From Lachnospiraceae bacterium AC2028 (lineage in GTDB: Bacteria > Bacillota > Clostridia > Lachnospirales > Lachnospiraceae): a DNA stretch of 64,000 nucleotides. The translations under genes and the position numbers were made by a program. Shown piece by piece: positions 7,626 through 33,161 of this stretch (its first letter is position 1; every line of letters begins with the position of its first letter). The notes below the pieces were generated by a model that searched no databases, was not told the origin of the DNA, and saw only the letters and a list, made by a program, of their open reading frames with translations. The stretch is taken from positions 496,001 through 560,000 of the forward strand of contig JNJD01000006.1 in the NCBI GenBank assembly GCA_000702685.1. The letters run 5' to 3'.

Positions 7626-8633
7626 TCAGATCATCTCCCATGATTTGGGAACAAAGAGGTCATTGTATGTAAGGATTGCGAATCTGTCTGTCATGGCACC
7701 GACGTAATCGCACACAGCCCTTTCCGGAGCTTCACCCTCATCGATCATCAGTCTGTTTTCCTCGGGCAGCTTGTCCAGATGGTGCATGTAATAATCGTAG
7801 AGCGTTATGACAAGAGTTTCGGCCTTGCCTTCTTCGGATTTGATGTCGGGGTTCGTATAAACCCTTTCAAACATGAACTGTCTGATCTCCTTCATGGCAT
7901 CCATCACGCCGTCACTCATGCAGATATCATTCTTTTCCTTGCTGTTCGTGATGATGTCGTGCATAAAGGTATCGAGCCTGTCACCGGGAGTCGATCCGAG
8001 GACATCCCTTATCGAAGCGGGAACGTCCATTTCGGTAAGAACCCCGCCCCTTACAGCATCGTCCATATCGTGATGGATATATGCGATCTTGTCGGATAAT
8101 CTCACGACCTTGCCTTCAAGCGTGGAGGGCATTCTGGAGGTCTGGTGGTTCAGTATCCCGTCCCTGACTTCCCAGGTAAGATTCAGGCCCTTTCCGTCCT
8201 TTTCAAGCTTTTCGACGGTTCTTACGCTCTGCTCGTTGTGTTTGAAGCCTAAGGGACAAACGGAATTGAGAGCTCTTTCTCCGGCATGTCCGAAGGGAGT
8301 ATGACCGAGATCATGGCCCAGTGCTATTGCCTCGGTGAGGTCCTCGTTCAGCCTGAGCGCCTTGGAGATCGTGCGGGCTATCTGTGAAACCTCGAGAGTA
8401 TGGGTAAGTCTGGTCCTGTAGTGGTCGCCCTCGGGGATCAGATAAACCTGGGTCTTATCCTTGAGCCTTCTGAAGGCTTTACAGTGGACTATCCTGTCAC
8501 GGTCCCTCTGGTAAACGGGTCTTATGTCACACTGGGGCTCATCCGTGTCGCGTCCTTTTGAATTTTTGGAAAGTGATGCGTAAGGGCTTAAGATCTGCTC
8601 TTCACGCTCCTCAAGCATTTCTCTGATGGTCAT
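7626..8633 (-). CDS. dgt: Deoxyguanosinetriphosphate triphosphohydrolase-like HD protein
   Basis: HD-domain dNTPase family, hydrolysing dGTP or other dNTPs to nucleoside and triphosphate. The 335 residues contain RRLKDKTQVY, TRLTHTLEVSQIAR (first His, about 75) and the HD pair in ALGHDLGHTPFGHAGE (about 106-120), the Dgt signature, then a later ARG-free DKIAYIHHDMDD metal/helix motif. The ATG at 8633 has CAGGAG upstream. It is the first gene of the minus-strand operon dgt-dnaG-rpoD-trmK-kinase and faces the ABC transporter genes across a 220-bp divergent region. Confidence 0.92.
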   Translation of the reverse strand: MTIREMLEEREEQILSPYASLSKNSKGRDTDEPQCDIRPVYQRDRDRIVHCKAFRRLKDKTQVYLIPEGDHYRTRLTHTLEVSQIARTISKALRLNEDLTEAIALGHDLGHTPFGHAGERALNSVCPLGFKHNEQSVRTVEKLEKDGKGLNLTWEVRDGILNHQTSRMPSTLEGKVVRLSDKIAYIHHDMDDAVRGGVLTEMDVPASIRDVLGSTPGDRLDTFMHDIITNSKEKNDICMSDGVMDAMKEIRQFMFERVYTNPDIKSEEGKAETLVITLYDYYMHHLDKLPEENRLMIDEGEAPERAVCDYVGAMTDRFAILTYNDLFVPKSWEMI

Positions 8634-8773
8634 AGTTTTCTCCTGTAAAAACAGTCACCGTATGTATATACCCCATTAATTAAGAAATCCCTCTCTTTTT
8701 TCATAAAAATTTTACGAAAAACTCAAAAGTCTCAAAAAGCCTGCTTTTCTACCGTGAGTTGTTCTACCGCAGG

Positions 8774-8779
8774 TATAAT
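8774..8779 (+). promoter_or_regulatory. Candidate -10 box for the ABC/DUF1854 operon
   Basis: TATAAT lies 75 bases before the TTG start at 8854; no good -35 is seen at the right distance (ACCGTG or TTCTAC nearby). The remainder of the 8634-8853 divergent region is AT-rich, with nothing else recognised. Confidence 0.4.
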
Positions 8780-8853
8780 ATGGATGATTCAGGGGTTTTC
8801 CTATGTTAAAATACAAATCAATTCGAAAAAAGAGACAATAACGGAGAAATTTC

Positions 8854-11145
8854 TTGAACAAAGATCCAAAACTCAAAAAAACCGATATTGAAAAGCTAAA
8901 AAGTCTCGGAATAGAGGAATCCGGGGTTCTGTTATCAAGCCCCATAGATCTTTCATTTTCGGGAGAATATATCGAGGGCTTTATAGCCGTCACCACTGAC
9001 AAGGTAGTCGTCTGCACAAAAGAGCTCCCCGAAGGACATCTGAATCTTTTTAACGGGGTGCCCGTACCCGAAAACCTGCCGGACGAAGAGGCGGCCATAA
9101 CGGATACATACGTTTACGAAATAAGTGAGCTGGCCCACCTGCGCCTCGATGCCTACATAGGTTCAAATGTCCTTTCGGCTTCCTACAAAGGAGTTCCCAC
9201 GCACCTTGCGGCATTCACCAACAGGTATTCATCCGGAATGAATGTCCTCTTCCGCAAGCTCAAGGGCTTCCTTAAGGGTGAAGAGATCACGCAGGATGAA
9301 GAAAGCCCCGATGACGGTGCCGAAGAGACAGAGGAAAAGAAGAAAAAGAGCAAGCGCTCCATCTTCTTCAGAACCCTGAGATACTTCCTTAAATACAAGT
9401 TCGGGCTGTTCATTCTTTTCATTACATATCTGACCTCAGCAGCACTCAGCATTGCGTGGCCGTACCTGACGGGTAAGGTCCTCTTCGACCACGTCCTCGA
9501 AAAGGACGAAGTATTCCTCGCCCGTTTCGGACTTGACGGCAGATACGTCCTTGCACTCGGAATGGTCGCCCTCACGATGATCGGCGTAAAGGTCATTCAG
9601 TCGGTCTCAAACTATTTCCAGGTATTCTGCATGGCGAAGGTCGCAGCCTACACTGTCAGGGATATCAAGACCGATGTCTTCGATTCTATGAGCAGGCTTT
9701 CCCTTAACTTCTTCGTAAACAAACAGACCGGCGGTCTGATGACAAGAGTCCTGAGTGATTCCGAAAGAGTAAGGGAATTCTTCATAGACGGAATCCCGAT
9801 GGTATTCGTTCACGGAATAACGATCATCGTCACGTTTACCGTCATGTACAGGCTGAACTGGAAGATGGCACTCATAGCATGCATACTCCTTCCTCTTCTG
9901 GTCTTCATGACAATCAAGCTCCGCCCCGGACTCTGGAATCTTTCCGGCAAAAGACACCGTGCCGAGAAAGCCGTTACCGCCAAGGCCAACGACAATCTCA
10001 CCGGAGCACGTGTTGTAAAGGCATTCGGACAGCAGGAAAACGAGATCGTAAAGTTTGTCCACCCCAGCGAAAATCTCCGTGATGCCGAGATCAACATAGT
10101 AAGACTCAGAAACAAATTCGCGATCCTCTACAACATGGTCCAGGAGGTTTCAAGCATCTGGATCTGGATCGTCGGCGTATTCTTTGTAATGAAGACCCAT
10201 GAGATCGAGCTCGGTGTGCTCATCACATTCGTCGGATACGTAATGCAGCTGAACGGTCCCATGAATTCCTTTTCCTGGATATTTAGGATGTGGGCCGAAA
10301 GCATAAACTCAGCGGAAAGACTCTTTGAGATCATAGATGCGATCCCCGAGATCCGCGAAAAGGAAAACCCTGTAAGGCTGACGCAGCCGAGGGGCGAGAT
10401 CGAACTTGATAATGTAACCTTCGGCTACAGGATCGGACGTCCGGTTCTCAAGAACATAAACCTCAAGGTAAAAGAAGGAGAAATGCTCGGCATAGTCGGA
10501 AGATCCGGTGCCGGCAAATCCACTCTCGTCAACCTGATATCCAGACTCTACGATGTAAACGAAGGATCGATCAGCATCGACGGAACCTGTGTCAAGGACC
10601 TTGCGCTCTCAGACCTCAGAAGAAACGTTGCGATGGTATCACAGGATACATACATCTTCATGGGATCCGTTGCAAAGAACATCGCATACGGAAATGAAAA
10701 CGCAAGCAAGGCCGACATCATCAGGGCCGCAAAGCTTGCAAGCGCACACGAATTCATTTCAAAACTTCCCGACGGATACGACACTGTCATAGGTGCATCC
10801 GGCAAGGACTTATCGGGCGGCGAAAAGCAGCGTATATCGATCGCAAGAGCGATTCTCGCAGATCCCAAGATACTGATACTCGATGAAGCTACCGCAAGCG
10901 TTGATACCGAAACGGAAAAAGCGATACAGCATTCTCTAAAGTATCTTGTCAAAGGAAGAACAACTCTTTCCATCGCACACAGACTCTCAACCCTTAAGGA
11001 TGCCGACAGGCTGATCGTTATCGACGGCGGCAGGATCGTTGAAGAAGGAACCTGGGACGAACTGTACGCACGTGAAGACGGAATCTTCCATAACCTCTTA
11101 GACCTTCAGAACAAATCGCTGCAGCGTAAAAGCGAAAGCTTTTAA
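8854..11145 (+). CDS. ABC exporter half-molecule with N-terminal PH-like domain
   Basis: Type IV (exporter-fold) ABC half-transporter of 763 residues. Residues 1-150 form an extra cytosolic beta-rich domain (SGEYIEGFIAVTTDKVVVCT looks like a PH/GRAM-type fold), then an acidic/lysine linker, six predicted membrane helices (about 175-470) and a nucleotide-binding domain: Walker A GRSGAGKST, Q-loop VSQDTYI, signature LSGGEKQR, Walker B ILILDEAT, switch IAHR. All ATPase motifs are intact. Start is TTG at 8854 with ACGGAG upstream. It is followed by a DUF1854 gene and a second half-transporter with the same kind of N-terminal domain, so the two probably form a heterodimer. The substrate is unknown. 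Confidence 0.88.
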   Translation: MNKDPKLKKTDIEKLKSLGIEESGVLLSSPIDLSFSGEYIEGFIAVTTDKVVVCTKELPEGHLNLFNGVPVPENLPDEEAAITDTYVYEISELAHLRLDAYIGSNVLSASYKGVPTHLAAFTNRYSSGMNVLFRKLKGFLKGEEITQDEESPDDGAEETEEKKKKSKRSIFFRTLRYFLKYKFGLFILFITYLTSAALSIAWPYLTGKVLFDHVLEKDEVFLARFGLDGRYVLALGMVALTMIGVKVIQSVSNYFQVFCMAKVAAYTVRDIKTDVFDSMSRLSLNFFVNKQTGGLMTRVLSDSERVREFFIDGIPMVFVHGITIIVTFTVMYRLNWKMALIACILLPLLVFMTIKLRPGLWNLSGKRHRAEKAVTAKANDNLTGARVVKAFGQQENEIVKFVHPSENLRDAEINIVRLRNKFAILYNMVQEVSSIWIWIVGVFFVMKTHEIELGVLITFVGYVMQLNGPMNSFSWIFRMWAESINSAERLFEIIDAIPEIREKENPVRLTQPRGEIELDNVTFGYRIGRPVLKNINLKVKEGEMLGIVGRSGAGKSTLVNLISRLYDVNEGSISIDGTCVKDLALSDLRRNVAMVSQDTYIFMGSVAKNIAYGNENASKADIIRAAKLASAHEFISKLPDGYDTVIGASGKDLSGGEKQRISIARAILADPKILILDEATASVDTETEKAIQHSLKYLVKGRTTLSIAHRLSTLKDADRLIVIDGGRIVEEGTWDELYAREDGIFHNLLDLQNKSLQRKSESF

Positions 11146-23405: not shown

Positions 23406-24848
23406 TCATTTCTCAAACTTCCAGTTTTCGAGCTCTAAGCACTCTCCGGAAAAGACGAGATATATGTCATGAACTCCGGTGATCTTCGAAGCAATATCAA
23501 CGGTAAATTCCTCAAAATCATCGGTAAGTTCCGAAGTTCCGAATACCGCGGCAGCTTCACCGTTTACATCATCGAGCACAACGGAAACCTCTCCGAAACC
23601 TTTGCCTCTTGCACTGAGCGTAAAGGCGGATGCTCCTTCACTTCCGAAATCAGCGCCGCTGACCATTACCCAGTTTCCGCTCTCTTCGGATCTTACGATC
23701 ATATTGCCTGCCGAAAGCTTCGGATCGGTAAGGGGCTTTTCGGAATCATATGCAAATGTCTTTACTCCCGCCATGGATGCGAATGTAGAAGCACTTGTAA
23801 GCTTATAAGGATCAAAACCACAGACCTGCTCTACGCCCTTTCTGGTGCCTGTGGAATGAGTGGGTGCACCGTCAGCTGACTGAGCGATCAGATCGACATT
23901 CGTGCTCCTGTATCCGCCGGTAAGATCCATATACTCCTCAAGGATGCGTGAGTGATATGCGATATACCACTTACCCTTGAATTCAAACATGCAGTGATGA
24001 TTGTTTCCGCCCCTTCCGAAGAACACTTCGGGATTCTTAAGCACGGGGCTTGCAGGCTTGAAGGGACCGTCAGGCTTGTCGGAAACCATTGTTACGATCT
24101 CACCCGATGAAAAGCCGTGCTCTTTCTCAGCTTCGGGAGTTACGTTGAAATTGGAGCAATATGAATAATAATATTTTCCGTTTATCTTGTTGATTCCCGA
24201 ATCCTCAAAGAGATAAGCTACATTCTCAATAGGTCTGGGATCCTCGGCAAGACTGATCATATCGTCACCCAGCCTTACGACTCTTGCGGTTCCGGGATTT
24301 GATGCCTTGTCATCCGAAGGGATTCCGCCGCCGATATAAAGCCATCCGGTTCCGTCATCATCAACGAGAACAGCGGGATCGAAAAGCCAGGTTACGGAAT
24401 CACAGTTGGGTGTTTCCCTAGATACAAGAGGTCCGTTAATGGGATCGATGAAGGGACCGGTGGGACTGTCCGAAGTAAGAACCGCAATACCGTTTCCGCT
24501 GTTGGCAAAGTAAAGGAAGAACTTATCCTTGCCGTTTATATTCTTCCAGCATGCGGCGGGAGCCCATGAATTGCCTCCCCAGGTTGCTATTCCGTTCTTT
24601 CCTGCGGCATATACCTCTCCGTGATCGGTCCAGTTTACCAGATCGGAGGATGAAGCAACGCTTATGGTATCTATCTTCTGGTATGTATTGTCGGTAAGTT
24701 TACCCGCATCATCGTAGGTCAGAATGTCACAGGTCATATACATATAGACCCTGTCCTTATAGACCATTGCGAAGGGATCAGCACCGAAGCGCTGGGTCAT
24801 TATCGGATTGTGATCACCCTGAGGCTTAAAGCTTTTTTTGATATCCAT
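23406..24848 (-). CDS. Glycoside hydrolase family 43 with C-terminal CBM6-like domain
   Basis: A 480-residue enzyme, probably alpha-L-arabinofuranosidase or arabinoxylan-debranching. The five-blade GH43 region starts with FGADPFAMVYKDRVYMY (catalytic base Asp about 24), the pKa-modulating Asp in TWLFDPAVLVDDDG, and the acid Glu in LFEDSGINKINGKYYY. The last 130 residues form a beta-sandwich of CBM6 type (GFGEVSVVLDDVNGE... ending LELENWKFEK). No signal peptide, so it acts on imported oligosaccharides in the cytosol. It has its own -10 (TATAAT, minus, 24882-24887) just after the terminator of the preceding gene, and AGGAG before the ATG. With the GH94-GH29-GH31 genes it would strip side chains from hemicellulose fragments. 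Confidence 0.88.
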   Translation of the reverse strand: MDIKKSFKPQGDHNPIMTQRFGADPFAMVYKDRVYMYMTCDILTYDDAGKLTDNTYQKIDTISVASSSDLVNWTDHGEVYAAGKNGIATWGGNSWAPAACWKNINGKDKFFLYFANSGNGIAVLTSDSPTGPFIDPINGPLVSRETPNCDSVTWLFDPAVLVDDDGTGWLYIGGGIPSDDKASNPGTARVVRLGDDMISLAEDPRPIENVAYLFEDSGINKINGKYYYSYCSNFNVTPEAEKEHGFSSGEIVTMVSDKPDGPFKPASPVLKNPEVFFGRGGNNHHCMFEFKGKWYIAYHSRILEEYMDLTGGYRSTNVDLIAQSADGAPTHSTGTRKGVEQVCGFDPYKLTSASTFASMAGVKTFAYDSEKPLTDPKLSAGNMIVRSEESGNWVMVSGADFGSEGASAFTLSARGKGFGEVSVVLDDVNGEAAAVFGTSELTDDFEEFTVDIASKITGVHDIYLVFSGECLELENWKFEK

Positions 24849-24947: not shown

Positions 24948-25658
24948 TCAGGTGAACAAATCAAAACTGTATCCGTATGATCCCGTTATGCTTGTTCCGG
25001 TTCCGTTATAAAGTGAAGCTCTGGTAGCGGCATAATCTGCATTACTCTGGATCATTGAAGCGGAAACCGAGACACTGTATCCGTATGAGGATTTCTCGGC
25101 AAACAGATCCTTGATATCCTTAGCATCCGCTGTCTTAAGCTTATCCTCATCGAGCTTAAGCGTTCCGTCATCAGAGGTACTGATGCCCGCAATGGACATC
25201 TTCTCCGAATAACCTCCGTTCATAACGGTAAGATACGATAATCTTCCGGAAATGGAAGCATCATTTATATCGTCTCCCTCTGCGGCTTTCACCATTGAGT
25301 TGTAGCTCTTTACGAAGTTCTTGACCGTGGAAAGAAGAAGGTCCTTGTCTTCCCCATCCGCATCCTGAATACTCTTGACCGAACTCTTTACCGAACCCGC
25401 TGCCTCTGAAAGCTTGCTGTAGGAATCCGATACGGTGGATTTTTCCTTAACGGGATTCTTTACATTGGTTATCTTCGAAGCGGTCTCGGACTTTTTATCC
25501 GGGTCGGCATAATATGCCTTCATCAGCTTGGAATACGCTCCGCTCTTGACCAATCCGTAGTCCTTGAGCCAGCTCATCGAATTGAACGAATCATTCTTAG
25601 CCGATATTCCCGAAAAAAGAAAGCTTGTATCGTTTTTAGCCTGAATATTTATACTCAT
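24948..25658 (-). CDS. FliD C-domain-like secreted or surface protein
   Basis: A 236-residue protein; ATG 25658 with GGAGGT is chosen over a longer frame. The C-terminal half follows the FliD (flagellar cap) C-terminal pattern: VKNFVKSYNSMVKAAE, SYLTVMNGGYSEKMSIAGISTSDDGTL, LDEDKLKTADAKDIKDLF, ending with a Ser/Tyr-rich coil. The N-terminal half is helical with many Ser/Lys. It is far shorter than real FliD (about 450-650 residues) and no flagellar genes surround it. No signal peptide is seen, as for flagellar-exported proteins. The 5' leader forms a hairpin next to the ribosome site. Its role is unknown; a flagellar-secreted or chaperone-like protein is possible. Confidence 0.6.
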   Translation of the reverse strand: MSINIQAKNDTSFLFSGISAKNDSFNSMSWLKDYGLVKSGAYSKLMKAYYADPDKKSETASKITNVKNPVKEKSTVSDSYSKLSEAAGSVKSSVKSIQDADGEDKDLLLSTVKNFVKSYNSMVKAAEGDDINDASISGRLSYLTVMNGGYSEKMSIAGISTSDDGTLKLDEDKLKTADAKDIKDLFAEKSSYGYSVSVSASMIQSNADYAATRASLYNGTGTSITGSYGYSFDLFT

Positions 25659-25666
25659 AGGCTTTA

Positions 25667-25683
25667 CCTCCGGCATCCCTGCC
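25667..25683 (-). promoter_or_regulatory. CsrA-like hairpin joined to the ribosome site of the FliD-like gene
   Basis: On the minus strand GGCAGGGATGCC (25683-25672) forms a 4-bp stem with GGGA in the loop, directly abutting the Shine-Dalgarno GGAGG (25671-25667). A GGA in a hairpin loop next to a GGA in the ribosome site is the arrangement of CsrA-repressed leaders; the core fits the ARGGAUG CsrA consensus. Confidence 0.5.
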
Positions 25684-25754
25684 AAAAGCGGTAACCCGCA
25701 CATATAGTTCCTTCATATAATACATATCATTTATGACTGTATTATGTAAAGTGA

Positions 25755-27749
25755 TTATTTTTTCTTAAATACGGGTATTGATTCGATGGGTGCGGCAGCG
25801 GTGATCGTCTGTCCGCCCTCGTATACCTTGCCGTCACGGATGTCTTCCCACTGTCCTGCGGGCAGATATACCTGTCTTTCCCTCATTCCCTCGTACATTA
25901 CGGGAGCAACGAGATACTCGCTTCCGAACATATACTGGTCATCGAGATCCCAGCACTTTTCATCCTCCGGGAACTCATAGAACATCGTTCTCATAAGGGG
26001 TGAACCGTTTGAGGAAGCTTCATCATAGAGCGACTTGATGTAATCCTTGAGATCCCATCTGATCTTAAGGTTATCGGTCATGATCTTCTGAACCTCTTCA
26101 CCGTAGCTCCAGATCTCATTGGCATGACCCGTGTGAAGATATCCGCTTCCCCAGTCCTTATGATCGAGGGGCTCTATATCGAGAGGACCTCTTTCTCCGT
26201 GAAGTCTTAAGATGGGAGTAAATACCGCCCACTCGTACCATCTTACAAGGAGTTCCTTAAAGTAGTCCGTATTTACGTCGCTGTTCATGAATCCGCCGAT
26301 ATCGGTGGTCCACCAGGGGATTCCCGCAAGACCTATATCAAGTCCTCCTCTTACGGAATTCTGAAGTGCTTCGAAGGTTGAATAAACATCTCCGCTCCAG
26401 AGAAGCGTTCCGTACTTCTGCGATCCTACCCATCCGCAGCGAAGGAGGTTGAGGATCTTCTTGTCGGGATGTACTTCCTTTTCACCCTCGAAGAATCCCT
26501 GTGCATAGCATCTGGGATAGATACAGCTGACCTCCGCACCGGGTCCGAGATAATAGCGGTAATTGTCGAAATCATATGCCGTAAGATCGGGCTCGGCATT
26601 ATCAAGCCAGAACATGTCTATGCCGTAATCGTAATAATTCTTTTTGCAGATATCCCATACAAACTTTCTGGCTTCGGGATTGGTCGCATCATATACTACG
26701 CAGTCGCCCTGGTAGTCATAGGTCTGCATAGCGCCCTTCTCGGTCCTCATGAGAAGTCCGCGGTCAGCCATGGGATAGAAATTCTCACTCTTTCTGTCTA
26801 CCGAAGGCCATACGGATACCATTACCTTGATGCCGTATGAGTGAAGCTCATCGACCATTGCCTTTACATCGGGCCAGTATTCCTTATCGAATTTCCATTC
26901 ACCCTGAAGAGTCCAGTGGAAGAAATCAATGACAAGAACGTCGATCTTGATACCGAGTTCCTGATACTTCCTTGCAACGGTAAGAACCTCATCCTGTGTC
27001 CTGTATCTGAGCTTGCACTGCCAGAGCCCGAGGAGATCTTCATCAATCTCGGGAGCACGTCCGACAACAGCCGTGTAGTTTTCAATAATGGCTTTGGGGG
27101 ATTCGTCCGTAGTGATCCAGAGATCGAATTCCCTGGATGCATCTGCTGACCACTCTGTCATATTCTTTCCGAAGGTTACGTGACCGACCGCGGGATTGTT
27201 CCAGAGAAGTCCGTACCCTTTATTGGAAACCTCAAAGGGGATTGAGGTCTGTGCATTGCGCTGCGCAAGCTCGAGAGTTGTTCCCTTAAGTTCGATGTAC
27301 GGATTCTGGTAAACGCCCATACCGTAGATCTTCTCGCCCTCTATGGGCTCGAAACGGAGCGTAAGCTTATAATCTCCGTTGAGATAGGGCTTATACTCTC
27401 TGTTTACTCTCTTAAAACAGCTTACGGCATTGTTCTCGGTTCCGCCGTAGTTGCTGAAGTATTCCCTCATAAGGAATTCATCGTTCTTATAATACGTGAT
27501 GATTCCTTCACTGCTCACGGACATGGATGTGGAACCGTTTTTGATAAGCGCTCTCTGCTCGGTTATCTCGATCTTTGCATTCGTCTGTTCTGCCGGCAGT
27601 TCATCCTTCGGACAAAGTGCCCAGAGATTACCGGTAAAATCATTGTTCTTGGTTGCTCTGAGGCGCAGGGCATTCTTTCCCCAGCCTTCTATCCTTACGA
27701 TCTCTCCGCCCTTCTTAAAGACGAGCGCATTACTGTCCTGATAAAACAT
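25755..27749 (-). CDS. Glycoside hydrolase family 31, probable alpha-xylosidase
   Basis: A 664-residue cytosolic retaining glycosidase. The N-terminal beta-sandwich (YGMGVYQNPYIELKG) precedes the barrel: IDVLVIDFFHWTLQGEWKFD, nucleophile Asp in DMFWLDNAEPDL (about 395), acid/base Asp in LLWSGDVYSTFEAL (about 450), then GIPWWTTDIGGF and RLHGERGP. The LDNAEPD form is closer to alpha-xylosidases than to alpha-glucosidases. No signal peptide. It starts 24 bases after the GH29 fusion gene, in operon with GH94; removing xylose from xyloglucan oligosaccharides fits this company. Confidence 0.88.
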   Translation of the reverse strand: MFYQDSNALVFKKGGEIVRIEGWGKNALRLRATKNNDFTGNLWALCPKDELPAEQTNAKIEITEQRALIKNGSTSMSVSSEGIITYYKNDEFLMREYFSNYGGTENNAVSCFKRVNREYKPYLNGDYKLTLRFEPIEGEKIYGMGVYQNPYIELKGTTLELAQRNAQTSIPFEVSNKGYGLLWNNPAVGHVTFGKNMTEWSADASREFDLWITTDESPKAIIENYTAVVGRAPEIDEDLLGLWQCKLRYRTQDEVLTVARKYQELGIKIDVLVIDFFHWTLQGEWKFDKEYWPDVKAMVDELHSYGIKVMVSVWPSVDRKSENFYPMADRGLLMRTEKGAMQTYDYQGDCVVYDATNPEARKFVWDICKKNYYDYGIDMFWLDNAEPDLTAYDFDNYRYYLGPGAEVSCIYPRCYAQGFFEGEKEVHPDKKILNLLRCGWVGSQKYGTLLWSGDVYSTFEALQNSVRGGLDIGLAGIPWWTTDIGGFMNSDVNTDYFKELLVRWYEWAVFTPILRLHGERGPLDIEPLDHKDWGSGYLHTGHANEIWSYGEEVQKIMTDNLKIRWDLKDYIKSLYDEASSNGSPLMRTMFYEFPEDEKCWDLDDQYMFGSEYLVAPVMYEGMRERQVYLPAGQWEDIRDGKVYEGGQTITAAAPIESIPVFKKK

Positions 27750-27773: not shown

Positions 27774-30707
27774 TCATAAAAGTTCGATCTTAAATACTAC
27801 AGGCATATCATCGCGGGACCTACCATTTACTCTGATATCAAGTCCTTCAGCCCCATGATCCCACTTTACTTCCGAACCGTCGGCAAGAAGGACAACCTTT
27901 GATATAAGTCCCTTGTAGGAATGTCCGCCGTCCTCGCCGTTTTTTGCAAAGCTCTTAATTACGTAATGTCCGTCCTCTGCAGGCTTCATAGCCGCTGCAT
28001 AGATGTATCCGTCCTTTGCGGTGAATCTGAAATCCTCAGAGGTATATTCAAGGCTTTCCATATCCTTGAATCCTCCCTCTTCCCTGTTGATCTTGCCTTC
28101 GCCGTAGATCTTGTAAGGCGTGCTTCCGTAGATCATCTCACCGTTCTTATCGAGCCACTTTCCGATCTCGAGAAGTGCTTTCTTTTCCTCATCGCATATG
28201 GTTCCGTCCGCCTTGGGACCTACATTGAGAAGAAGGTTACCGTTCTTGGAAACGATATCGATAAGTTCTCTTACGATATCAAGTCCGGACTTGTAGGAAA
28301 GGCCGGGTACATATCCCCATGACTCCCTGCATATGGGAGTATCCGATTGCCAGATGTATGATGCGGAGCCTGACAGGCCTCCTCTTTCGATATCCCTTAC
28401 GGATGCGCCGGGTGCAAATGCATCGACCTTGGATACGATCACACCCTCTAATCCCTTGGATGCCATCACATTATAGTAATATGCGGCAGCCTTCTTAAGG
28501 TAGGGCTTGAGAACCTTCTGTGCTATCCACCAGTCAAAATAAATAACTTCGGGAGTAAAGAGATCCACTATCTCGCAGGTTCTTGCAAGCCAGTCCTGCA
28601 TAAACTCTTCGCTGGGTGCAGGCTTTACATCGAAGTCCTGGATGTTCTCGGGCTCGGGCTGTGAAGGCCAGTAGAGATCTCCTCTTTTGAACTCACCCTT
28701 GATATCACTGTCGAAATTTCTTCCGTTTCCGAGGAACCACCAGTGCTCGATCCTGTGTGAGGAAACGCCGAAATGAATTCCGTATTCTTTCGCCGACTTT
28801 TTAAGCTCAGCGACTATGTCCCTGTGAGGACCTTTCTCCGCCGCATTCCAGTGAGACATACGGCTCTTATACATCTGGAATCCGTCATGATGCTCGCCAA
28901 CCGGAACGACATATCTTGCACCGGATTTTTTGAAGATGTCCATCCAGGTATCGGGATCGAATTTCTCTCCCTTGAACCTGTCTACGTAATCCCTGTATCC
29001 GGTCTCGGTGTGAGGTCCGTACTTTTCTATATGATGCTTCCACTCCTCGCTATCCTTGATATACATACATCTCGGATACCATTCATTGGAAAACTCCTCG
29101 GAGGTGAATACACCCCAGTGAATGAAGATTCCGAATCTTTCGGATGCAAACCAGTCGGGAACCTTAACCTTGGAAAGCGAAGCCCAGTCATCCTTGAACG
29201 GACCTTTTGCAATGACCTCGTCGATCCTCTTCATCTCTTCGGAAAGCTCGGGCAGATCATCGGCATCCTGATCTTTGTCATCAGTCAGTACCGCAGCGGA
29301 TGCCGAAGCTTTCTTATCCTTTTTTTCGGATTTCTCTTCCTCTGCTTCCTCTTTTTTCTCTTCTTCCGCTATATCATCGAGGGCTTTATCAAAAGCCTTA
29401 TCGTCGGTTTCATCGTCATCACCGTATCCGGTTTTGTCCATATCATCCTTCAGATCCTCTTCCCTGGGAGGTCTTTCTTTCGAAAGAAGGATTCCGCAGA
29501 TGATCATGGCTATTGCAGCTATGGCTATGATCACGCCTATAACAAGTCCTTTCGAAGTATTCTCTTCTTCTACAACAATATCCGCAGGCTGAACCGGCTG
29601 GACAGGCTCAACAACTTCTACAATATCGTCGGGCACGACCTCTTCGATCACTTCGGGTTCGGGCTCACGGTATTCTTCAAAGATTGAATTTACCGTGATG
29701 ATATATTCAATCTTGGTTGCTCCGGCAAAAAGAGCGGGATCAACGTAAAGCACACCGTTCTCATCACATCCGCCGCAGATCCTCCAGGCATTTTCATTAT
29801 CCCCGACGGTTTCAGCCCATGCGGGAGATCCTGCCATATAATTGATGACCGTATCGGAGCCGTCGATGCGAAGTGCAACTGATATATCCATCTCGGCAAA
29901 TGATTTGCCTTCCTCGGACGGAACTATGACCGGTGAAATATGATGAACATGAGTTATTGCATTGGGAAACTGAAGTGAAACGGTAACAGTATCTCCGACA
30001 AGCGCACTTGCGGTCGTTGCGGTAATGCTGTCGCTGTTATTCTCATTGCCGGGTCCCTGATAAACATGAGTCTCTCCGCCGGCAACATCTCCGGAAAAAT
30101 CGATATAGACAAGTGATTCACCTTCATACGCAGGTCCGAGCCTGTGTGCTACGGTGAAGGAATTAAGAGTGATAGTGTATTCTATCTTGGTTGCTCCGGC
30201 GAACGAATTAACGGGAAGCGTACCCGTACCGTCCTCATCATATCCGCCGTAAAGCTTCCATGAATGCATGAGCGTACCGACAGGACATGCCCACGCTTTT
30301 GCAGCTTCGGGATCGGGTGTGATCTCAACATCTTCCCCGTTTACCCTGAGAGATACATCGGCGTTTACGGAACCGAAGACGACAGTATCATCGCCCGTGT
30401 ACATTACCGGTGCGATCGAAGTGATATGTGACGGCATCTCAGGAAGTACAAGAGATATGACAACCGTGTCACCTGCTTTTGCCGAAGCATTTACAGCCAC
30501 GATTCCTTCGCTGTTCGAATTGCCGGTCGGATCCGTATAAACAAGACCTCCGTCTCCGGCTTCAAGTCCCGATCCGACAAAAGAAATAAAGAACGATACA
30601 GTCTCTTCCTGATCACCGGCCGCCTGAGCCGGGATCACCGGAACGATCGATGCTGCCAAAAGCAAAGCCGCCATGACCGCTCCGAGTTTTCCCAACATTT
30701 TTTTCAT
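27774..30707 (-). CDS. Membrane-spanning fusion: two surface beta-domains, TM helix, GH29 alpha-L-fucosidase
   Basis: A 977-residue protein. A signal peptide (to about 29, cleavage after AQA) is followed by two similar beta domains (about 35-175 and 190-345, each with GDTVxVSLxxP) and a Glu/Pro/Val linker. One membrane helix (about 386-406, LVIGVIIAIAAIAMIICGILL) precedes KERPPRE. Then comes a long acidic/lysine linker and a complete GH29 domain from about 505: GIFIHWGVFTSEEFSNEWY, VPVGEHHDGFQMYKS, nucleophile Asp in VIYFDWWIAQ, LLLNVGPKADGTI. By the positive-inside rule the fucosidase faces the cytosol and the N-terminal domains face outside, unusual for GH29. Operon with GH94 (24-base gap) and GH31 (24-base gap). 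If the helix were not inserted, the enzyme would be secreted. Confidence 0.85.
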   Translation of the reverse strand: MKKMLGKLGAVMAALLLAASIVPVIPAQAAGDQEETVSFFISFVGSGLEAGDGGLVYTDPTGNSNSEGIVAVNASAKAGDTVVISLVLPEMPSHITSIAPVMYTGDDTVVFGSVNADVSLRVNGEDVEITPDPEAAKAWACPVGTLMHSWKLYGGYDEDGTGTLPVNSFAGATKIEYTITLNSFTVAHRLGPAYEGESLVYIDFSGDVAGGETHVYQGPGNENNSDSITATTASALVGDTVTVSLQFPNAITHVHHISPVIVPSEEGKSFAEMDISVALRIDGSDTVINYMAGSPAWAETVGDNENAWRICGGCDENGVLYVDPALFAGATKIEYIITVNSIFEEYREPEPEVIEEVVPDDIVEVVEPVQPVQPADIVVEEENTSKGLVIGVIIAIAAIAMIICGILLSKERPPREEDLKDDMDKTGYGDDDETDDKAFDKALDDIAEEEKKEEAEEEKSEKKDKKASASAAVLTDDKDQDADDLPELSEEMKRIDEVIAKGPFKDDWASLSKVKVPDWFASERFGIFIHWGVFTSEEFSNEWYPRCMYIKDSEEWKHHIEKYGPHTETGYRDYVDRFKGEKFDPDTWMDIFKKSGARYVVPVGEHHDGFQMYKSRMSHWNAAEKGPHRDIVAELKKSAKEYGIHFGVSSHRIEHWWFLGNGRNFDSDIKGEFKRGDLYWPSQPEPENIQDFDVKPAPSEEFMQDWLARTCEIVDLFTPEVIYFDWWIAQKVLKPYLKKAAAYYYNVMASKGLEGVIVSKVDAFAPGASVRDIERGGLSGSASYIWQSDTPICRESWGYVPGLSYKSGLDIVRELIDIVSKNGNLLLNVGPKADGTICDEEKKALLEIGKWLDKNGEMIYGSTPYKIYGEGKINREEGGFKDMESLEYTSEDFRFTAKDGYIYAAAMKPAEDGHYVIKSFAKNGEDGGHSYKGLISKVVLLADGSEVKWDHGAEGLDIRVNGRSRDDMPVVFKIELL

Positions 30708-30731: not shown

Positions 30732-33161
30732 TTAAAGTCTTTCAAAAGGAACTTCACATGCGTTCTTACCCATAACGGCTTCGATCTTGTTATCGCCGTC
30801 AACGAGCTTGGATACGGGGATGACCGCAGAATTGATCTTTTCTCCGTTTACGGTAATGTACGCTACGCCCTTGCATACATGCTCGGGGTTCTTGACTTCG
30901 ATGTGAAGATTCTTTCCTCTGAATACTCTTTCGACCTCAAAGCCGCCCCAGGAATCGGGAATGCAGGGATCGATGAGCATTCCGTCGTACTGGGGTCTGA
31001 TACCGAGTACATACTGTGTAAGTGAATAGTATGTCCATGCAACCGCACCGGAAAGCCATGAAGTACGACAGTTACCGGGTCTGGGTGACTCATCCGAATA
31101 GGTGGTCTGACCCTGAACATAAGGCTCCGACTGACGGATCTCGGCTCTGGTATTGTAGCTTGCGGGAAGCGCAGCCTTTAAGTACTTGTATGCCCTGTTT
31201 CCGTTGCCGGCAACGGTCTCTGCCATTACGCCCCATCCCTGGGTATGATTGAAGATACCGCCGTTCTCCTTGATGCCGGTAGGGAATACTACGCAGCCCA
31301 TAACGGTCTGGGGAGTGTAAACAATAGGAGGTGCGCAGAGCTTGAGTCCGTATTCGGAGAAGAGCTGCTCATCAACGGAATCAAGGCAGAGCTTTTCCTG
31401 ATCATCCTTGCATGCACCGGACATAACAGCCCATACCTGGGTGTTGAGGTAAACCTTTCCCTCGTCATACTTATCGGTTCCGTATACGGTTCCGTCTTCG
31501 CCGACAGCCCAGATCCACCACTTTCCGTCCCATGCTTTCTTCTGGATTGCTTCGTCAAGGATGTCTCTCTGCTTAAGCGCCCATGCTGCCTCGTCTTCTT
31601 TTCCGAGGAGTTTGGAAATATCGGCATAGGTGGTAAGACCGAGTCTTAACTGGAATGTTACCATTACGCTCTCGCCGTGATAACCGGTCTGGAGACAGTC
31701 GTTCCAATCGGCTGCAAGTCCGGAAGGAAGTCCGTCGGCACCGCTTCTTTCAATATTGAAAAGAAGCGCTTTCTTGAGGTGACCGTAAACGGTATCCTCT
31801 CCGTGATCTGCATAGGGAATAACTTCATTATAGAAATCAAGATCACCGGTCTCGGCAACATATGCAGGGATCGCATTGAAGAACCACTGGCAGTCATCCG
31901 ATCTGAATTCCTTCTCATCGGGGCACTGCATATGTCCGGGATTATGACCGAGCTTGATGAGGGGCATTGCGCCTCCGCAGAATGTCTGACCGGAAAGCAT
32001 CAGTTTAAGGCGGTCCTTGGAAAGACCGGGAATAGCTGCGTTGACACCGAGAGTATCCTGAACGGAATCACGGTATCCGAGTCCGTCTCTTTCTCCGTTG
32101 TAAACAAGCGATGCAGCTCTTGACCATGAGAATGTGATGAGGTTGTTGTAAAGTCCCCATACATTCGCGGTGTGGTTGATATCTTCATCGGGAGTCTTAG
32201 CCTTGAATGAAGTAAGCTTTGAGTGCCAGTCTTCCTTGAGCTTTTCGAACTCCTCGTCAAATCTCTTTACAGAGCCGTACTCCGCAACGGTCTTCTCACC
32301 TACGGCATTTGCATTTCCGATTCCGAGAAGGATGAGGACTGTTTTCTTTTCACCGGGAGCAAGAACCATATCGGACTGGATAGATCCGCAGGCGGTATCG
32401 CCGTAGCACCAGGAATCGGAGCACTGTCCTTCGATGACAGCCCTGGGCTCCTTGTATGATCCGTATGTTCCGAGGAACTTTTCCCTGGAAGTATCGTAGT
32501 GGGTCATGGGTGCTTCGCATACCGCGAACCACTCCTGCTGGATGAGACCGCCGAGTTCATACTCGGGATGCTGTTTGTAGATATTGTCATGGATGGAATA
32601 GCCGAGAATGTTGTCGGCCTTCTTGTCCGCTTCCATAATGAAGAGTGAATACTGAAGATTTACAAGATCCTGGGTGGTATTCCACTGGCTTGCAAATTCG
32701 CAGTATGTGAATGCAGAAAGATTTCTGGGCTTATCGGACTTGTTCTCAACATCAAGTCTCCAATACTCGAATCTCTGTCCGAGAGGAACGAAGTAAGTAG
32801 CATCGGTGTGGATGCCCGAATAATCTGAACTGAATATGGAATATGCAGTACCGTGACGGCATACGGTCTTGTACTGATCGAGAGGCTTGCCTACGGGCTG
32901 CCATGATGCAGACCAGTAATCCTTGGAATCGTTGTCTCTTAAATAGAAATATCTTCCGGGCTGGTCCATGGGGATCGAATTGAAACGAAGACGCATGAAT
33001 CTTCCCTGCGCACCGGAACGATAGAATCCGTATCCGCCCGCATTATTTGTAATGATCGCACCGTACTCAGTGGTACCGAGATAATTGCTCCACGATGTGG
33101 GAGTATCCGGTCTGTCTACGACATATTCGTAGGCTTCATCATCAAAATGTCCAAACTGCAT
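30732..33161 (-). CDS. Cellobiose phosphorylase, glycoside hydrolase family 94
   Basis: An 809-residue cytosolic enzyme that cleaves cellobiose with phosphate to glucose 1-phosphate and glucose, saving ATP. The N-terminus FGHFDDEAYEYVVDRPDTPTSWSNYLG is that of true cellobiose phosphorylases. The catalytic region has GYRDSVQDTLG, HNPGHMQCPDEKEFRSDDCQW and the acid Asp in GLAADWNDCLQ (about 485), then VFPTGIKENGGIFNHTQGW with ARAEIRQSEP-type end. First gene of the GH94-GH29-GH31 operon; the upstream 194 bases contain a TATACT -10 but no obvious operator. The backbone left after xylose and fucose removal from xyloglucan would be its substrate. Confidence 0.93.
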   Translation of the reverse strand: MQFGHFDDEAYEYVVDRPDTPTSWSNYLGTTEYGAIITNNAGGYGFYRSGAQGRFMRLRFNSIPMDQPGRYFYLRDNDSKDYWSASWQPVGKPLDQYKTVCRHGTAYSIFSSDYSGIHTDATYFVPLGQRFEYWRLDVENKSDKPRNLSAFTYCEFASQWNTTQDLVNLQYSLFIMEADKKADNILGYSIHDNIYKQHPEYELGGLIQQEWFAVCEAPMTHYDTSREKFLGTYGSYKEPRAVIEGQCSDSWCYGDTACGSIQSDMVLAPGEKKTVLILLGIGNANAVGEKTVAEYGSVKRFDEEFEKLKEDWHSKLTSFKAKTPDEDINHTANVWGLYNNLITFSWSRAASLVYNGERDGLGYRDSVQDTLGVNAAIPGLSKDRLKLMLSGQTFCGGAMPLIKLGHNPGHMQCPDEKEFRSDDCQWFFNAIPAYVAETGDLDFYNEVIPYADHGEDTVYGHLKKALLFNIERSGADGLPSGLAADWNDCLQTGYHGESVMVTFQLRLGLTTYADISKLLGKEDEAAWALKQRDILDEAIQKKAWDGKWWIWAVGEDGTVYGTDKYDEGKVYLNTQVWAVMSGACKDDQEKLCLDSVDEQLFSEYGLKLCAPPIVYTPQTVMGCVVFPTGIKENGGIFNHTQGWGVMAETVAGNGNRAYKYLKAALPASYNTRAEIRQSEPYVQGQTTYSDESPRPGNCRTSWLSGAVAWTYYSLTQYVLGIRPQYDGMLIDPCIPDSWGGFEVERVFRGKNLHIEVKNPEHVCKGVAYITVNGEKINSAVIPVSKLVDGDNKIEAVMGKNACEVPFERL

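Follow-up and report, generated by a model that had tools for sequence, protein, structure and literature searches.

How does a glycoside hydrolase of family GH29 come to lie, within one reading frame, behind a signal-peptide-like N-terminus, two repeated beta domains and a membrane helix, and on which side of the membrane would it act? The question is raised by a 64,000-nucleotide stretch of contig JNJD01000006.1 of Lachnospiraceae bacterium AC2028 (hereafter the window), which belongs to a group found in ruminant guts. Positions 27774-30707 of its reverse strand constitute a single uninterrupted ORF of 977 amino acids, and the genome, which is 99.6% complete in 14 contigs, holds one match to this protein. 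A first-pass annotation made from the sequence alone had listed a signal-like N-terminus, two repeats, a linker, a helix and a full GH29 domain, and all of these are indeed present in the one frame. The frame, its parts and its neighbours, all on the reverse strand, are the following:

23406..24848, reverse strand: GH43 with CBM6, best PDB match 3c7e
24948..25703, reverse strand: 251-aa ORF with a weak FliD_C match, between the GH31 and GH43 genes, syntenic in relatives
25755..27749, reverse strand: GH31, alpha-xylosidase-like, downstream operon partner (Pfam; gene order in relatives)
27774..30707, reverse strand: fused ORF of 977 aa (signal-like N-terminus, two repeats, stalk, membrane helix, acidic tail, GH29)
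27777..29234, reverse strand: GH29 module, residues 492-977 (Pfam match 498-857; presumed nucleophile Asp725 by alignment to 7lnp)
29235..29480, reverse strand: acidic low-complexity tail, residues 410-491 (35 D/E, 15 K/R), holding the fusion junction
29481..29549, reverse strand: membrane helix, residues 387-409 (23 hydrophobic residues, peak hydropathy 3.11; in 9/9 fused proteins)
29550..29672, reverse strand: Pro/Glu-rich stalk, residues 346-386 (sequence)
29673..30146, reverse strand: beta repeat 2, residues 188-345 (HMM match; AlphaFold2 two-repeat model)
30147..30617, reverse strand: beta repeat 1, residues 31-187 (HMM match; AlphaFold2 models, pLDDT 91-92)
30618..30707, reverse strand: signal-peptide-like N-terminus, residues 1-30 (MKKMLGK..PAQAA; hydropathy peak at residues 8-26, 2.28)
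30732..33161, reverse strand: GH94 phosphorylase, upstream operon partner (Pfam; gene order in relatives)

Pfam recognised GH29 only in the 977-aa protein (PF01120, complete, residues 498-857, E 2.9e-92, profile positions 8-345 of 345) and nothing in its N-terminal half. The best explanation, with a probability of roughly 0.62, is that of a single-span membrane protein derived from fused operon genes, carrying beta domains outside the cell and a tethered cytosolic GH29 that debranches imported oligosaccharides. Two neighbouring genes of a glycan-use operon would have fused; the N-terminal signal would send the two beta domains outside, one helix would stop the transfer, as sequence and comparison suggest, and the GH29 would stay in the cytosol, held by the acidic, flexible tail. 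At the inner face of the membrane the exo-acting enzyme would split off terminal alpha-L-fucosyl or alpha-L-galactosyl residues, so that imported plant oligosaccharides would be trimmed before, or together with, the action of cytosolic GH31, GH94 and GH43, while a glycan or an importer is probably what the outer domains recognise. The observations behind this explanation are the fused frame, its conservation, its split relatives and the free GH29 proteins examined, which have no hydrophobic N-terminus. The topology, the catalysis, the ligand and any benefit of tethering are inferred.

Fused and split forms within one genus

A protein search of 114 genomes recovered the full-length fused frame in 9 of the 31 genomes of the window's genus (G000, G030, G018, G004, G016, G027, G007, G028 and G012) and nowhere else. 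The architecture, which the first-pass annotation proposed to look for in other Lachnospiraceae, is accordingly found in eight relatives, all of the same genus, with identities of 87-88% (G030, G018, G004) or 60-62% (G016, G027, G007, G028, G012). A scan of species representatives with six short peptide patterns, by which relatives can be missed, gave eight full-length fused contigs (L031-L038), apparently from the same eight relatives. Outside the genus no fused form was seen among the matches of the repeat HMM in 298 family genomes, where one of the four matches besides the window's own (G119/L106) runs off its contig with its C-terminus unseen.

In two further genomes (G021, G024) the membrane part and GH29 are encoded by neighbouring genes that lie in different frames, while in a third (G010) the halves lie on two contigs, the second of which begins with the acidic tail and a stop, followed by the GH29 ATG. 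In all three the stop of the membrane part falls 4 nt before the likely ATG of GH29, the start codons of the split genes having been chosen by us and the G021 GH29 frame being open for 90 codons further upstream. G002, whose contig ends in the tail, was counted neither as fused nor as split. In two genomes (G019, G023) the gene after GH94 encodes a membrane protein with a single repeat (277 and 289 aa); no GH29 or GH31 was found in the 526 and 685 bases beyond the membrane gene, and no GH29 match genome-wide. Fused and split forms alike have their genes in the order GH94 - membrane part - GH29 - GH31. The adjacent halves of the split relatives, so narrowly separated by a stop, argue that the single frame represents a genuine, conserved gene fusion rather than an error. 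Of the circumstances that had been named as fatal to the first-pass annotation, a joining of two genes by fusion did take place, in evolution, whereas an assembly error is contradicted by the nine copies. Split operons also show that the pathway can do without tethering.

The trees leave more than one history for the fusion. In that of GH31, which was midpoint-rooted only, the split clade (G024, G010, G021) joins the fused clade of the window with support of 100/100. The tree of GH94, weak in itself (1 of 11 inner branches starred), partly conflicts with it, as G021 and G010 group with G002 at 88/95 and G024 stands apart. The branching order is not settled by the outgroup-rooted GH29 tree or by the N-module tree, in which long branches meet. 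These sequences are compatible with two separate fusions as well as with a single fusion followed by a split.

Met492, the likely internal start of the GH29 module, is Ile in G016, so that GH29 cannot start at that Met in this genome, and no clear ribosome site lies 5-9 nt upstream of it in the window. Both findings weaken the case for an internal translation start that would give a free GH29. The loss of this Met, together with the maintenance of the fused frame in nine genomes down to about 60% protein identity, also bears on a near-neutral fusion, in which two parts with unrelated jobs would have been merged through operon adjacency and the enzyme would be effectively soluble, possibly released by proteolysis in the tail. 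The co-occurrence of split and fused states within one genus, trees that allow either history, and a tail that is poorly conserved between clades all fit such an origin. However, the conserved frame and the lost start codon speak against it, and we regard it as unlikely, though deserving to be weighed seriously.

Over six pairs, dN/dS was 0.05-0.27 in the repeats, 0.07-0.18 in the helix and 0.06-0.13 in GH29, with 0.10-0.52 in the stalk, 0.04-0.67 in the tail and 0.10-0.99 in the signal, dS being near saturation in several. The value of 0.67 in the tail was obtained between the two fused clades; given this fast evolution, no conserved interaction motif is evident there. Synonymous divergence between the window and three close relatives is about 1.2 in the repeats versus 0.25-0.38 in GH29, and nucleotide identity in 300-base bins is 72-78% in 29400-30300 versus 84-99% in most enzyme-gene bins (edge bins are intermediate, and the L033 bins below 25800, outside the BLAST match, were ignored). 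Between close relatives, no other stretch of the operon diverges as much as the outer part (repeats and tail, 29400-30300). The high synonymous divergence and low identity suggest that this surface part has undergone recombination and exchange, or diversification.

Such divergence of the outer part would also suit a transmembrane sensor, in which a ligand outside would alter how active the cytosolic GH29 is, or its release, as in a receptor enzyme, and the layout resembles that outlined for sensors such as RsgI, where an external ligand domain is paired with an internal output domain (PMC12203970). The output here is, however, a metabolic hydrolase of ordinary kind, a single helix with a flexible tail would conduct a signal poorly, and Pfam detects no anti-sigma or kinase domain, all of which makes a sensor improbable.

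Sidedness of the membrane protein

The hydropathy profile of the 977-aa protein has an N-terminal peak besides that of the helix, with the values given above. In each of the nine fused proteins the helix is directly followed by K/R (KER, RER, RRK or RKK). Over the eight residues beyond the first K/R, however, D/E and K/R are about equal (3-4 each), the flank being basic only where it adjoins the helix, while the eight residues before the helix hold 1-3 D/E and 0-2 K/R in the fused proteins, an acidic or neutral outer flank. Compared with a type I single-span protein, the helix is found in 9/9 and the N-terminus is suitably hydrophobic, and the charge of the inner flank is balanced over eight residues. 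The positive residues noted after the helix in the first-pass annotation are thus consistently the first to occur, but they do not extend into a basic flank.

Additional evidence comes from relatives of the two halves. A hydrophobic N-terminal stretch was seen in none of the 35 free GH29 loci checked, out of 37 non-fused loci fetched (L013 and L039 are one contig-truncated gene and uninformative, L023 and L030 were left out, and the sets may contain duplicates). In another genus (G142, L108) the repeat domain is borne by an LPXTG-anchored protein. The free GH29 proteins without an export signal, the LPXTG-borne repeat and the conserved signal, helix and K/R together favour repeats outside and GH29 inside as the best-supported topology, so that the arrangement originally read from the sequence gains support from comparison. 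The companion enzymes GH94, GH31 and GH43 of the window had been said to lack signal peptides, and a hydrophobic N-terminus is absent from all three (maximum 0.11, -0.02 and 0.46, respectively). Unlike the window GH43, its 58% identical relative in G024 (L093, 17208-18908) has a lipoprotein-like N-terminus.

Export of the whole protein, with GH29 at the cell surface and the helix as part of a secreted or re-inserted form, would agree with the N-terminal export signal, with an inner flank that is basic only next to the helix, and with the fact that many other GH29 enzymes are secreted. It is nevertheless very hard to reconcile with a 23-residue hydrophobic stop-transfer segment in all nine proteins, or with the lack of a hydrophobic N-terminus in the free homologues examined and in the window's GH94, GH31 and GH43, and we give it little credence. 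Finally, an assembly or sequencing artefact, which the MAG label of seven of the eight fused relatives might have suggested, is refuted by nine independent assemblies that reach down to about 60% identity and include that of a named strain, P6A3 (L038, 916-kb scaffold).

Repeat domain, enzyme and substrate

Both repeats match one HMM built from 18 copies (E 8.3e-66 and 2.2e-59, both having been in the model) and are, by this likeness, homologous to each other. The HMM has matches in 20 of the 31 genus genomes and in 5 of 298 family-wide genomes, the window's own included. The structural prediction proposed in the first-pass annotation gave a confident all-beta fold, for two repeats (AlphaFold2, pLDDT 91.2, pTM 0.73) as well as for one (pLDDT 91.7, pTM 0.88). 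With Foldseek neither model had a match in the PDB at E <= 0.001, and the domain is therefore left without a name. The window's own repeats had no Pfam or NCBIfam match at E 0.01, and repeat-bearing relatives, LPXTG anchors aside, no Pfam match and only NCBIfam matches below cut-off. With no recognised family or fold in Pfam, NCBIfam or the PDB, an assignment as a CBM was rejected, and these searches lend no support to the sugar binding that had been attributed to these domains.

Five further genomes of the genus carry a longer repeat protein. In four of these (G009, G014, G015, G025) the protein closes with a helix and has no enzyme, and the gene that follows at once encodes an ABC permease, as it also does in G163 and G361 of other genera; in the fifth (G006) the frame runs past the available sequence with its C-terminus unseen. 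The permease genes were recognised by their likeness to that of L025/L101, whose product is a BPD_transp_1 protein and matches UgpA/MalF below cut-off. A second permease and a solute-binding protein were confirmed by Pfam in G014, and a solute-binding protein in G015, those at the other loci being assigned from gene order alone. The repeat may thus be an uncatalogued importer-associated surface domain. A tentative extension of the favoured reading is that the outer domains dock an importer or glycan and hold the cytosolic debranching enzyme at the transporter exit, whereby side-chain removal would be coupled to uptake. Pfam scans of 28 proteins of the window brought up no sugar importer. The adjoining ABC permease has extra N-terminal membrane segments at L101, L102, L103, L104, L105 and L107. 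At L108 (8212-11068), in the genus of G142, three small proteins stand in a row, two of them LPXTG-anchored, and one (8212-9198) has the repeat domain.

The nearest solved relative of the enzyme part is BpGH29, an exo-alpha-L-galactosidase (residues 503-975 aligned, E 2e-109). Asp725 aligns with the Asp replaced by Asn in 7lnp, which we take to be the catalytic nucleophile. A search of the 31 genus genomes for fucose isomerase (PF07881) found none; completeness is at least 90% and contamination no more than 5% in 10 of these genomes, and controls matched in 3 of 14. The nature of the nearest solved relative and the lack of a PF07881 match make 'fucosidase' a provisional label on sequence grounds, and the role of the GH29 may be debranching rather than fucose feeding. 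In the earlier designation 'GH29 fucosidase' the family is borne out by a complete domain, but the specificity for fucose is not. The PF07881 result weakens a reading as fucose catabolism as far as the fucose isomerase route is concerned.

The operon neighbours give indications of the substrate. The nearest matches of GH94 are phosphorylases of N,N'-diacetylchitobiose, chitobiose and cellobiose, that of GH31 is the alpha-xylosidase MeXyl31, and that of GH43 is 3c7e, named endo-1,4-beta-xylanase in the PDB and presumably the Bacillus arabinoxylan arabinofuranohydrolase. In the G002 operon (L098, 2433-6586) a GH115 gene and a PTS EIIC-like gene lie between GH31 and GH43, hinting at glucuronoarabinoxylan debranching. 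Xyloglucan and complex arabinoxylan are both possible substrates, and the alpha-xylosidase matches of GH31 fit either. The GH43 match, so understood, the GH115 of G002 and a precedent on corn xylan make us lean to xylan, which does not explain the GH94 matches to chitobiose and cellobiose phosphorylases. In that precedent, as summarised in PMC4491172, a GH31 alpha-xylosidase and an alpha-L-galactosidase of GH95, a 'fucosidase' family, of Bacteroides ovatus act on corn xylan.

Comparison with known systems

The closest enzymes are GH29-A alpha-L-fucosidases of SSN cluster 2 (BpGH29, 7LJJ/7SNK; RiGH29 from Roseburia intestinalis), the cluster being named here by likeness to BpGH29. According to PMC11189522, this cluster holds one alpha-1,2-preferring fucosidase, xyloglucan-active ones and BpGH29, and in that text the word 'transmembrane' occurs 0 times, whereas the present GH29 protein is predicted to span the membrane. 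The proteins of L101-L104 (same genus), L105 and L107 (two other genera) share the repeat domain and a single C-terminal helix with the fused protein, but have extra sequence or repeats before the helix, end soon after it and carry no enzyme. Among the matches listed, in open-licence PMC titles and the beginnings of abstracts, no membrane-anchored or cytosolic GH29, or other glycoside hydrolase, with outer domains was seen, which is a weak negative. The protein gives a known enzyme family a new architecture. It brings to light an uncatalogued surface domain beside ABC importer genes, and makes the separate-gene and one-protein states both visible in one genus. With its split relatives as natural controls, the fused protein offers a direct test of a possible spatial coupling between the import of complex plant glycans and their intracellular trimming in Lachnospiraceae.

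The RsgI anti-sigma factors of Clostridium thermocellum, as outlined in PMC12203970, likewise have a single helix that separates a glycan-recognising outer domain from an intracellular one. An RsgI-type N-terminal cytosolic anti-sigma domain has no Pfam match in the 977-aa protein. In RsgI the intracellular part is N-terminal and binds a sigma factor, whereas here the N-terminus is signal-like and a hydrolase makes up the inner part. Recognition outside the cell and glycoside hydrolysis in the cytosol, normally the tasks of separate proteins linked only via a transporter, would in this protein be joined across a single helix.
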